From: Pseudobdellovibrionaceae bacterium
GTDB taxonomy: Bacteria > Bdellovibrionota > Bdellovibrionia > Bdellovibrionales > Bdellovibrionaceae
Reading direction: 5' to 3'
Length of the DNA: 64,000 nucleotides
NCBI GenBank assembly: GCA_947449255.1
Contig: CANFQX010000016.1
Location: 1-64,000 of the forward strand
Positions 2,004 to 32,585 of the stretch are shown here, in pieces. The notes under the pieces are model-generated. The model had not been told where the DNA came from. It searched no databases and saw only the letters and a list, made by a program, of their open reading frames with translations. Both the position numbers and the translations under genes were made by a program. The number at the start of each line of letters is the position of its first letter. Position 1 is the stretch's first letter.

Positions 2004-3755
2004 TTAAGTTGATTTCTTAGATGTTGTTTTCTTTGTCGTTGTTGTTTTTTTAGTTCCCTGCGGTTGGGAAGCTTCCTCAACAAGATCTGAAGAGCTGATG
2101 ATATCTATTTCGATTTCATCACGACCAACACCTTTTTTCTTTTCACGAATTTTCTGCTCTAAAAGCTTCGATTCCGCGGCTTCCAGATCTGCAATCGCCT
2201 CTTCGGAGTCGCGCCCCAAGAGTTTTCTTAATCCCTCTTCAGCCCTTTTTTTACGAGCCTCAGGTGCATTAACAATCCTTGCCAAACACTCAACTAAAAT
2301 TGGACCAAACTGTTCGATGTGCGCCAATTTTCGCTCAAGGTCTGCTTCTTTCACTTCTTTTCTGATATGTCGTGAAAGTTTTTGACCCGCCTGAATCAAT
2401 GCCAGCCGAATTTCAGAAACCAATTCATCCGAAGCATCAATAGTTTCTTTAGAGGCATTTTTAAATTTAATAAATGGCGACACGATGGAAATTGCAAAGA
2501 TATAGGGCCCTAAAGGCAAACTGTCTTTTGGCTGCTGCAGTCCATAGGCCTTCCAATTCACTGACTCGATGGCCCAAGTGATTGCACAACCCGACTTATC
2601 AAACTGCAAAGGGACGCGATTTGCAAACCGCAGCAATTGCACAGAACTGTCACCCGTTTGATGGCGGTCTTTAAAACGCGCCAAAGCGACTTCAACAACG
2701 ACCGGTTTAAAATCACAGATGCAGGGTTTGCGAGTCACAACCGCAAAGAAATCCACTTCACCCAATCGAGTTATGGATTTTGATAAGGCTTCTTCGCCCA
2801 CGGTCAAAACTGACTTCGTTGAAGGCGGCATCAAATTTGTGGCCTGAACTGCCATGAATGCCTTTTTAAAATCTTCTTCACTTAAAGAAGACACTGATTT
2901 TTCAATCAAATTTTTGGGCATCCCCTGTTTTACAAAATCACTGATGGATTGATCACTAATCCGAGAAAATCCTGTTTTTAAAAACTTCGACAGAGTTGTC
3001 TTACCAAATAAAGTGGAGTGAGTTATAAACTCTCCCAACTTAAAGGTGTGAGGATGTGGTAAGGTTGCTTCTGGAATTTCAGGCACCTCTGTGCTGACTC
3101 GGTTTACAGTGACAAAATCATTTTCTACCAACTTGTAAGTCATCGTCAGATGGGGATTTACCAGAACTGTTCCTTCAATATAAGTTAAAAGGCCGCCATC
3201 GCCATTCAACTGTATACGACCGTCCAGAATGAACTCGACGCGAGTTCCGCAATCACGGTCCCAATCTAGAGTTTCTTTTTTCTTTAAAATGCCAGTGTTT
3301 GATTTAATATCGACATCGACTTGCGCTGACATCGCTTTTCGCATTTTTTTAGTTTTCGAGATGACATTTACGCCTCTGGCATTGGTCATTTGCGCCCAAG
3401 TGGTTGCAGCTGAAATACCAATCCCCTGCTGACCTCGGGAACATTGTCCTCGGCCAAACTTAGATGACGCTAAATATTCTCCATAAACTTTGGCAATATC
3501 CTCTGAATCAATGCCGGGGCCATTGTCTTCCACGACAATACGAATGAGATCTGTATTTTTAGTCGATCCAATGCCAACTTTTGCAATTTCAACCAATAGA
3601 TCAGGCAATATACCTGCCGATTCGCAAGCGTCTAGGGAGTTATCTACAGCCTCTTTAAGAGTCGTCAAAACGGCCTTTAATGGGGATGAGAAACCCACCT
3701 GTTGAAGGTTCTTGGCAAAATATTCCGCGGTGCTACTTTTAGTAATTTTGCTCAC
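2004..3755 (-). CDS. top6B: DNA topoisomerase VI subunit B (GHKL ATPase)
   Basis: This is the ATPase subunit of topoisomerase VI; ATP-driven dimerisation closes the gate around DNA cut by subunit A. The N-terminal GHKL (Bergerat) fold has its N box (EAVDNSLDAC, with E35 and N39), G1 box (VEDNGPGID, D77) and glycine-rich lid (RGQQGIGISAA). The middle should hold the H2TH and transducer domains. The last 16 residues are almost only Lys, Thr and Ser, a basic tail that may contact DNA. The start is GTG at 3755, preceded by an AAGGG stretch at a somewhat long spacing. It is transcribed with top6A and diverges from the CinA-like gene across about 260 bp. Confidence 0.9.
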   Translation of the reverse strand: MSKITKSSTAEYFAKNLQQVGFSSPLKAVLTTLKEAVDNSLDACESAGILPDLLVEIAKVGIGSTKNTDLIRIVVEDNGPGIDSEDIAKVYGEYLASSKFGRGQCSRGQQGIGISAATTWAQMTNARGVNVISKTKKMRKAMSAQVDVDIKSNTGILKKKETLDWDRDCGTRVEFILDGRIQLNGDGGLLTYIEGTVLVNPHLTMTYKLVENDFVTVNRVSTEVPEIPEATLPHPHTFKLGEFITHSTLFGKTTLSKFLKTGFSRISDQSISDFVKQGMPKNLIEKSVSSLSEEDFKKAFMAVQATNLMPPSTKSVLTVGEEALSKSITRLGEVDFFAVVTRKPCICDFKPVVVEVALARFKDRHQTGDSSVQLLRFANRVPLQFDKSGCAITWAIESVNWKAYGLQQPKDSLPLGPYIFAISIVSPFIKFKNASKETIDASDELVSEIRLALIQAGQKLSRHIRKEVKEADLERKLAHIEQFGPILVECLARIVNAPEARKKRAEEGLRKLLGRDSEEAIADLEAAESKLLEQKIREKKKGVGRDEIEIDIISSSDLVEEASQPQGTKKTTTTKKTTSKKST

Positions 3756-29969: not shown

Positions 29970-31535
29970 CTATCTAGCATGTTCCACTGAACGAGTTTCT
30001 CTAACAACTGTCACCTTCACATTGCCAGCTTGCGGAACTTCTCTTTCAATTTTTCGTGCAACATCTCGCGATAACATGACGGCTTGATCGTCGGTCACCT
30101 TGCTAGACTCAACCAGAACTCGAATGTCTCTGCCAGCCTGTAAAGCCAAGGTCTTAAGAACTCCATCAAAACTATTTCCTATGCTTTCTAGATCTTCCAA
30201 TCTATGTACAAAAGAATCAATTTGCGGACGTCTTGCGCCTGGTCGTGAGGTCGAAAGAATAAATGCGGCATGAACAATCCAAGCCAACAAAGAGTGTGGT
30301 TTTTCATCTTCATCATGTGCACGAATGGCATGACAAATGTCTTCAGATTCTCCATATTTTTTAGCAGTCTCTGCGCCAACGAAGGAATAACTTCCCTCTG
30401 CGGTGTGATCAATGGCTTTACCAATATTATGAAGCAAACCACCACGGCGAGCCAACTTAACACTTAAGCCCAACTCTCCCGCCAAAAGGCCTGCAATCTG
30501 AGCCACTTCCAAAGATTGATTCAAAGCATTTTGTCCTTGGAAAGATCGATACTTCAATCCTCCAATGATTTTAACCAGCTCTGGATGAATATTGGCCACA
30601 CCAAGCTCCATCACATGTCGCTCGCCCTCTTCTTTGATGGCCTTCATCAACTCTGCTCGCTGCTTTTCAACAACTTCCTCAATTCGAGCTGGATGAACTC
30701 GTCCATCCTCCATCAGTTTTTCAATTGTCCTGCGAGCCAATTCACGGCGAACCGGATCAAATCCAGAAATAACCACAGCTTCTGGCGTATCATCCACAAT
30801 CAAGTCAACACCGCAATGAGCTTCAAGAGTCCGGATATTTCGACCTTCACGGCCGATAATTTTACCTTTCATTTCATCATTTGAAAGGGCCAAGACACTC
30901 ACTGTTCTTTCTGAAGTGTATTCAGATGCAAATCGTGAAAGAGCCGTGGCCAGGATTCGCTTAGCCCGCTTTTCAGATTCTTTTTGAGCTTCGTCTTCGA
31001 TTTGAGTGATTCGTTTAGAAGCCTCTTGCTTAGCTTCATCTTCGATGGCGCTCAAGAGCTGACGTTTAGCTTCATCTTGAGTCATCCCCGCAACGGATTC
31101 TAATTTAAGCTTAAGTTCACCAATATGAGACTCGCCTTTTTTCTCAAGCTCTTTAATTCGATGTTCTGAAATAGCAATTTTCTCTTCGCGATCCTTTAAT
31201 ACATTCAGATGTCGATCATTTTCATCCATCTTGGCCTTAAATTGATCATCGACCTCTTTTAAGCGGCGCTCTAGTTGCAACTCTTTATTTTTTAAAGTTG
31301 ATTTCTGCTTATGAATATCAGCTTCAACATTTTTACGAGCACGAGATTCAAAATCCTTAGATTTTGTTTCCGCATCTTTTTTAAGACGTGCCGATTCAGA
31401 ATTTGCTTTATTGATAATTCGTTCAGCTTCAATTCGAGCTGACTTCTTTTTATTATTATCCTGAATTCTTTTAATTAAAAAAACTACTGTTGCGCCCAAC
31501 AATATCCCTATTATGGCGGCAATGACTAATTCCAT
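29970..31535 (-). CDS. rny: RNase Y homologue with degenerate HD active site
   Basis: RNase Y is a membrane-anchored endoribonuclease that starts mRNA decay. Here the single N-terminal membrane helix, the long coiled coil (about residues 30-195), the KH domain (GKIIGREGRNIRTLE) and the HD-domain fold are all recognisable, at 521 residues, the usual length. The metal-binding residues are mostly lost. The first HD histidine is Q340, the HD pair is H369-N370, the third histidine is Y383, the HH pair is H407-D408, and the last aspartate is F425. These replacements were read directly from codons. The protein may therefore be a non-catalytic scaffold. The ATG at 31535 follows GGAG; an earlier TTG at 31550 is less likely. 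Confidence 0.9.
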   Translation of the reverse strand: MELVIAAIIGILLGATVVFLIKRIQDNNKKKSARIEAERIINKANSESARLKKDAETKSKDFESRARKNVEADIHKQKSTLKNKELQLERRLKEVDDQFKAKMDENDRHLNVLKDREEKIAISEHRIKELEKKGESHIGELKLKLESVAGMTQDEAKRQLLSAIEDEAKQEASKRITQIEDEAQKESEKRAKRILATALSRFASEYTSERTVSVLALSNDEMKGKIIGREGRNIRTLEAHCGVDLIVDDTPEAVVISGFDPVRRELARRTIEKLMEDGRVHPARIEEVVEKQRAELMKAIKEEGERHVMELGVANIHPELVKIIGGLKYRSFQGQNALNQSLEVAQIAGLLAGELGLSVKLARRGGLLHNIGKAIDHTAEGSYSFVGAETAKKYGESEDICHAIRAHDEDEKPHSLLAWIVHAAFILSTSRPGARRPQIDSFVHRLEDLESIGNSFDGVLKTLALQAGRDIRVLVESSKVTDDQAVMLSRDVARKIEREVPQAGNVKVTVVRETRSVEHAR

Positions 31536-31638: not shown

Positions 31639-32247
31639 TTACCCATTGCCAGACCGCTCAGCCCGACAATTTATAATTTCCGTATCCGTAATCAGAAAAT
31701 CCATGCGCACATCATGATCTTCCTCTGGAAGTTTCCGAGTTGGTATTTGAAAATCAAAACAAACACCAACCTTAATCCCCAGAAAAGACTGCAAGGCTCG
31801 GTCATAATACCCCTGACCTCTTCCGAGCCGACCACCCTGACGACTAAAAGCCACCCCTGGAATCAGCAACCCGTCAATTTTGCTGAGTGAAACCACCGTG
31901 GAATTTCTATCGGGCTCAAGAACACCGAAGGAGCCTTTAATAAAACCCTGTGCTTTACAAAACTCAAGGTTCCTGCCAGGATTTCCCAACGGCTCAAAAG
32001 GTGCAACACGAGGAAAAACCCAGTTCACATTCGATATCTGAAAGACTCGATCTGCACTAGCCTCTAAAGTCAGAGCACGGTAACTTCCCCAAACACCACT
32101 TTTCGAAGACATAAAGTCATCCAAGTGAGAGTTGAGCTTCATTTGGTTCGCCTCAAGTCCACGGGAAAATTTCTGAATATAAAGGGATTCAAAATAGGAA
32201 CGACATTCCTTTTTTGAATTCCAATCTTCAAAGTTCCTAGCAACCAT
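31639..32247 (-). CDS. 5-formyltetrahydrofolate cyclo-ligase
   Basis: The enzyme converts 5-formyl-THF to methenyl-THF with ATP, recycling a storage folate. The C-terminal signature LIPGVAFSRQGGRLGRGQGYYDR is nearly canonical and the final segment KLPEEDHDVRMDFLIT also fits. The first 60 residues are divergent. The start is uncertain: ATG codons at 32247 and 32259 are both possible, and I favour 32247 because GGGGG lies five bases upstream. zapA is immediately upstream, an arrangement also seen in E. coli (zapA-ssrS-ygfA), but there is no room here for 6S RNA between the two. Confidence 0.85.
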   Translation of the reverse strand: MVARNFEDWNSKKECRSYFESLYIQKFSRGLEANQMKLNSHLDDFMSSKSGVWGSYRALTLEASADRVFQISNVNWVFPRVAPFEPLGNPGRNLEFCKAQGFIKGSFGVLEPDRNSTVVSLSKIDGLLIPGVAFSRQGGRLGRGQGYYDRALQSFLGIKVGVCFDFQIPTRKLPEEDHDVRMDFLITDTEIINCRAERSGNG

Positions 32248-32285
32248 CGACACCCCCATATCCAAATTCAAGAATGCAGGTGTAC

Positions 32286-32585
32286 TTATTTAGGGATTTT
32301 TTTTGCGTTTTCGAGATCTTGATAAAGAGCTAATGTCTTCACTTCAAGTTTTTCCAGCTCGTGATTGGCTTTTTTCTTCAGCAGGATAAGTTCTTCAGCA
32401 ATATTCATTGCCGTCAAAACAGCAGCATTTTGAAAGGAACCATTTTTACTAGCAGCCATAGATTGATTCATTCGATTGTTAACAAATTCGATGAGCTCTT
32501 GCATCATCGCATCGTTATGAGAGGTTTTTATTTTATAAGGAACGCCAGCTATGAGGAAGGTGTAAGTCTTTTTCTCTTCTATCAC
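32286..32585 (-). CDS. zapA: Cell division protein ZapA
   Basis: ZapA binds FtsZ and bundles its filaments at the division ring. The 99-residue protein has the family layout: a short N-terminal beta/alpha region with LIAGVPYKIKT, then a long C-terminal coiled coil from about residue 60 (LTAMNIAEELILLKKKANHELEKLE). Length and pattern match ZapA. It is immediately upstream of the 5-formyl-THF cyclo-ligase gene on the same strand. The ATG is preceded by GGAG at a slightly long spacing. Confidence 0.85.
   Translation of the reverse strand: MIEEKKTYTFLIAGVPYKIKTSHNDAMMQELIEFVNNRMNQSMAASKNGSFQNAAVLTAMNIAEELILLKKKANHELEKLEVKTLALYQDLENAKKIPK

Follow-up and report, generated by a model that had tools for sequence, protein, structure and literature searches.

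Reciprocal loss of catalytic and RNA-binding sites in two RNase Y paralogues of Bdellovibrionales: a probable two-subunit enzyme

What does an RNase Y do when its catalytic site is gone and the rest of the protein is in place? The question is raised by the gene rnyA in a 64,000-nucleotide stretch of a Pseudobdellovibrionaceae bacterium genome (GenBank assembly GCA_947449255.1, contig CANFQX010000016.1), which we call the window. Its intact minus-strand reading frame encodes a protein of 521 residues, named A here, that scored 596 bits against the RNase Y equivalog model TIGR03319 (cut-off 454) and matched Pfam RNase_Y_N, KH_1 and HD. The order of membrane helix, coiled coil, KH domain, HD domain and C-terminal region is that of the RNase Y family, and is the same in B. 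subtilis RNase Y (Rny/YmdA) and its relatives. An initial annotation, made from the sequence alone, had described A as an RNase Y homologue that had lost its HD active site with the remainder preserved, probably a non-catalytic membrane scaffold or an enzyme using a different chemistry. The conserved domains found in A (Table 1) agree with the preservation of the remainder. The annotation also advised a search for a second rny or an rne gene, and both a second RNase Y, named B here, and an RNase E/G gene were found in the same genome.

The loss of the active site was borne out by the codons and by the alignment. Active-type RNase Ys, which are all of the single-copy enzymes in our alignment, have H, H, D, H, H, H and D at the seven ligand positions. 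Five of the seven are gone in A, and the complete ligand set of H, HD, H, HH and D is therefore absent. In B. subtilis RNase Y, as the annotation pointed out, mutation of the HD pair abolishes cleavage (compare PMC10303841). The codons of Q340, N370 and F425 read CAA, AAT and TTT as had been claimed, and K373 is encoded by AAA. The annotation went too far in writing of the loss of all sites: Q340, N370, Y383, D408 and F425 hold, but H369 and H407 are kept. These two histidines (30429-30431 and 30315-30317) may have a structural role or belong to a residual site. Displacement of the ligands, against which the annotation had asked for an alignment, was ruled out, as the alignment was free of gaps around all motifs. 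The flanks GLLHNIGKAIDH, IRAHD and PGARR of A align without gaps to GLLHDIGKAIDH and IRAHH of the active-type RNase Ys, and the ligands were thus substituted rather than displaced. Sequencing error was ruled out as well, because the HD loss is present in every A gene retrieved from the genus.

The KH domain of A has its GxxG loop (G228-R-E-G231). In the AlphaFold model of A (mean pLDDT 79), a helical HD domain and the KH domain are retained. Foldseek matches to this model were individually weak, covering the KH domain (2BA0, 2Z0S), the HD domain (2PQ7) and the C-terminal region (YiiP, MamM), and they are of the kinds already described for the B. subtilis enzyme. No solved structure of an RNase Y turned up in a sequence search. 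A is a member of the RNase Y sequence family, yet it fails a defining feature of the catalytic RNase Y, and the NCBIfam-style name 'ribonuclease Y' is misleading for it.

Table 1. Positions in the window of rnyA, its parts and its upstream neighbours.
Feature	Position	Strand	Basis
zapA, upstream neighbour of rnyA	32286..32585	-	PF05164 E=3.8e-12
5-formyltetrahydrofolate cyclo-ligase (5-FCL) gene, upstream of rnyA	31639..32271	-	TIGR02727 above cut-off
rnyA, RNase Y paralogue A, KH intact, HD ligands lost, 521 aa	29970..31535	-	TIGR03319
N-terminal membrane helix and long coiled-coil region, residues 1-205	30921..31535	-	PF12072
AlphaFold helices within residues 1-205 (2-149 and 153-200)	30921..31535	-	
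KH RNA-binding domain, residues 206-275	30711..30920	-	PF00013 E=2.8e-8
GREG loop, residues 228-231, intact	30843..30854	-	codons; G[KR]EG in 92/92 A rows
Degenerate HD domain, residues 331-432, predicted fold intact	30240..30545	-	PF01966 E=8e-13, model
Lost ligand, H to Q340	30516..30518	-	codon CAA
HD motif, H369 kept, D to N370	30426..30431	-	codons CAT, AAT
Lost ligand, H to Y383	30387..30389	-	codon TAT
HH motif, H407 kept, H to D408	30312..30317	-	codons CAT, GAT
Lost motif-V Asp, D to F425	30261..30263	-	codon TTT; gone in 92/92 A rows
C-terminal region, residues 433-521	29973..30239	-	model; strand is the modelled dimer-interface part in B. subtilis RNase Y (PMC9775385)

The genome containing the window belongs to the genus Bdellovibrio (3.2 Mb, 34 contigs, 99.97% complete), and its named relatives at 85-87% identity are Bdellovibrio, B. 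bacteriovorus strain kdesi among them. Bacteria of the Bdellovibrio type are known for predation. Upstream of rnyA are zapA and the 5-FCL gene, and tyrS follows downstream; 6S RNA or another structured RNA was looked for near zapA and the 5-FCL gene, and none was found. Elsewhere in the window, two adjacent minus-strand genes encode subunit A (804-1967; NCBIfam 473 bits vs 424) and subunit B (2004-3755; 521 bits vs 274) of DNA topoisomerase VI, a type IIB topoisomerase better known in archaea and plants.

B is encoded on another contig (G000:C14:62125-63685), and the A and B genes are at separate loci and are not neighbours. The HD motifs of B are complete (YFHCGEV, MLHDIGK, GGHAVIG, RAHHFDE and VIAADAIS, with the ligands H, HD, H, HH and D), and its KH loop reads DPDG in place of GREG. 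Since B is complete in its HD site and broken in its KH loop, A is better read as half of a split enzyme. In this genome a run of nine adenines in the B gene is one base too long, so that the reading frame is interrupted around residue 190-195; the frame is open in relatives. The A9 run is located at about 7675-7700 of L004 (G000:C14 about 62680), and the relatives have A8 or interrupted A runs. The frameshift could reflect a misassembly, transcriptional slippage at this site or genuine damage to the gene.

A, B and single copies were collected from Bdellovibrionota and a few outgroups, and about 225 sequences were aligned. The classified set consisted of 92 A, 87 B, 40 single copies and four sequences from family f21, after one further B, a fragment without the KH region, had been removed (88 to 87). 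Classes were assigned by the states of the HD site and the KH loop, and therefore the following counts taken alone are partly true by construction: G-K/R-E-G was kept in 92/92 A, all of which lacked D425 and had thus lost at least one HD ligand; all eight HD positions checked were kept in 87/87 B, in which GxxG with a basic residue occurred in 0/87 and any GxxG in 3/87; and the KH loop and the HD site were both kept in the 40 single-copy RNase Ys. However, three findings do not follow from the construction. There was no full sequence with both sites broken, genomes with an intact single copy never carried A or B, and all B sequences formed one clade with full support in the full-length tree. 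KH sites conserved among the single copies were retained at 99.4% in A and 38.6% in B, and the corresponding HD sites at 77.3% and 94.6%. None of five B proteins tested matched Pfam KH_1 above the cut-off.

The two paralogues occur together almost strictly, and both sequences were obtained from 81 genomes. The only near-complete exception is G041 (family f1, 99% complete, 10 contigs; L046, L260), which has an A with only D425N and in which B was looked for and none was detectable. B is therefore dispensable there, or the D425N form of A is still active. The other genomes from which A alone was obtained fall into three groups: incomplete assemblies, genomes with pieces of B at contig ends, and genomes whose B showed up in the search and was not fetched. 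The converse, B without A, was seen in a single genome, G305, whose completeness is 86%. In family f4, the genomes G063, G089 and G230 each carry one intact enzyme, and both the full-length rny tree and the rpoB tree place them outside the paired members; the G024 row of the rpoB tree, with its aberrant branch, was probably read in a wrong frame.

Loss events were mapped, as the annotation had advised, on a tree of A and the single copies from which the ligand columns had been left out. The loss of D425 came first and happened once, at the base of A; A was not recovered as one clade in a tree of residues 1-330 alone. H340, D370, H383 and H408 were each lost about 9-11 times while the KH domain stayed fixed, counts that hang on a single-gene tree with weak deep nodes. 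The replacing residues vary by lineage (Q, S, Y and N at 340; N, A, G and S at 370), which looks like relaxed constraint rather than a new conserved site. H369 was kept in 91/92 A and H407 in 85/92, although their partner ligands were repeatedly lost. H377 was also kept in A, and D425N is the sole HD ligand change in about a third of the A sequences.

Within Bdellovibrio, dN in A was 0.026 in the KH domain and 0.073 in the HD domain; in B it was 0.068 and 0.039, respectively. Strong purifying selection acts on both genes in the genus, with an overall dN/dS of about 0.04-0.05 (about 0.04 for A), although these ratios are rough because synonymous sites are near saturation. The annotation had argued for selection and against decay, and this was confirmed; the low dN/dS and the intact frames across the genus ruled out a pseudogene.

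How A and B might work together can be considered from the dimeric build of the family. B. subtilis RNase Y dimerises via its N-terminal coiled coil and probably via its last beta strand too (PMC9775385). In vivo, an inactive RNase Y acts as a dominant negative, an effect that has been discussed alongside dimers and higher complexes (PMC10303841) and that is in line with mixed oligomers. The coil from position 25 to 206 is 181 residues long in every measurable A, and its length is equal in 76 of the 79 A-B pairs at a coil identity of 20%; most single copies of the order share this length, and inheritance alone could account for part of the match. In f21 the coils of both copies have 177 residues. 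The net charge of the coil averages +4.3 in A and -5.3 in B and is higher in A than in B in 72 of the 79 genomes. The excess is strong in f1 and weak in f4, where the charges are +4.3 and +1.7 and the complementarity is weak. Taken from the sequences, the length match and the charge bias would fit an A-B hetero-coiled-coil.

We consider it probable that A and B are the two subunits of one RNase Y, joined in a hetero-oligomer at the membrane, with A binding the RNA and B cutting it. The hetero-oligomer is proposed because RNase Y is a dimer through its coiled coil and C-terminal region. Complementary degeneration would have originated when a second RNase Y appeared in the lineage: with two chains in one oligomer, one of them may have been free to lose its HD site and the other its KH loop. 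A retains the anchor, the coiled coil and the KH domain with its GREG RNA-contact loop and has given up the HD metal site; B retains the anchor, the coiled coil and the complete HD site and has given up the KH loop. In the membrane-bound hetero-oligomer, the KH domain of A would capture RNA and present it to the HD domain of B, which would then cut. Complementary degeneration of this kind, leaving each present-day protein as half an enzyme, is the simplest account and a probable one. From the features above we infer a physical association of A and B, RNA binding by A, cleavage by B and hand-over of RNA between the subunits. Weighing against the proposal are G041 with its A and no B, the frameshifted B of the window's genome, the separate loci of the two genes, a coil length shared with most single copies and the small charge contrast in f4. 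The sequences suggest that A and B function solely as a pair, and we lean towards an obligate two-subunit RNase Y in Bdellovibrionales, with KH capture by A, HD cleavage by B and hand-over at a membrane hetero-coiled-coil.

It is possible, though in our view unlikely, that A acts alone as a non-catalytic RNA-binding scaffold or regulator and that B is an independent RNase reaching its substrate in some other way, the two not forming one enzyme. The presence of A alone in G041, the conserved KH domain and coil of A, the separate loci of the two genes and the additional RNase E/G all speak for this reading, which nevertheless leaves unexplained why B has lost its KH loop wherever A occurs, why the two co-occur almost strictly and why their coils match. 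The scaffold of the initial annotation was thus half right: the HD site is lost, but A is better seen as the RNA-binding half of an enzyme than as a protein acting by itself.

More doubtful is the reading in which A is an allosteric activator or brake of B, that is, a prozyme-like pseudoenzyme, with RNA recognition not chiefly via the KH domain of A. Such pairs are known in trypanosome AdoMetDC/prozyme and deoxyhypusine synthase, in which the live partner needs a catalytically dead paralogue that activates it (PMC5201418, PMC3663545), and the fixation of H369 and H407 in A would suit a role of this type. The likeness to A and B is the dead paralogue beside the live one; the difference is that those pairs concern allosteric activation of metabolic enzymes and not a division between binding and catalysis. 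Furthermore, no part of A is more constrained than the GREG loop and the KH residues around it, an indication of RNA contact instead. That A is still active through a rearranged metal site or another chemistry is highly improbable, because in spite of the kept H369, H407 and H377 and the A sequences (about a third) that differ only by D425N, five of the seven ligands are gone in the window protein and the varied replacements are a signature of relaxed constraint and not of a new site; the different chemistry of the initial annotation is without support.

Returning to the two-subunit reading, the origin of B may be either duplication or transfer. The trees put B outside the single copies of Bdellovibrionales with uneven supports, and long-branch attraction likely contributed to this placement. 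Family f21 (G116, G122; L200, L204, L219, L220), from another class of the phylum, has two RNase Ys in each genome: the first has GREG and a broken HD site, whereas the HD site of the second is complete and its loop reads GKSG or GRMG. In the full-length tree this second, B-like copy falls with B; however, a B query scored lower against it than against the A-like copy of f21, and the grouping may therefore be an artefact. The family may be an independent case of the same split at an earlier stage, in which HD has been lost in one copy and KH is intact in the other.

RNase J1 and J2 of Firmicutes associate in a complex with one catalytically weak partner, and their fold is that of metallo-beta-lactamases, unlike RNase Y; to our knowledge, they show no reciprocal loss of the RNA-binding and the catalytic site in two domains. 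Their likeness to A and B is in having two paralogous RNases per genome (compare PMC7864078). The heterodimeric RNase III endonucleases of trypanosome editing complexes are eukaryotic and of another fold, and a KH loop and an HD site are not divided between their two chains. We found only passing mentions of RNase Y in Bdellovibrio in the literature, and no paper on a split RNase Y in a search that mostly did not cover subscription papers. Known RNase Y is described as a homo-oligomer with both sites in one chain, whereas here the sites are split over two paralogues. The pair would show clearly, in bacteria, how paralogues of a core RNA-decay enzyme can degenerate in complementary ways. As a natural A-B pair with one function per chain, it would also offer a direct test of whether RNA is gripped by one protomer of RNase Y and cut by the other.
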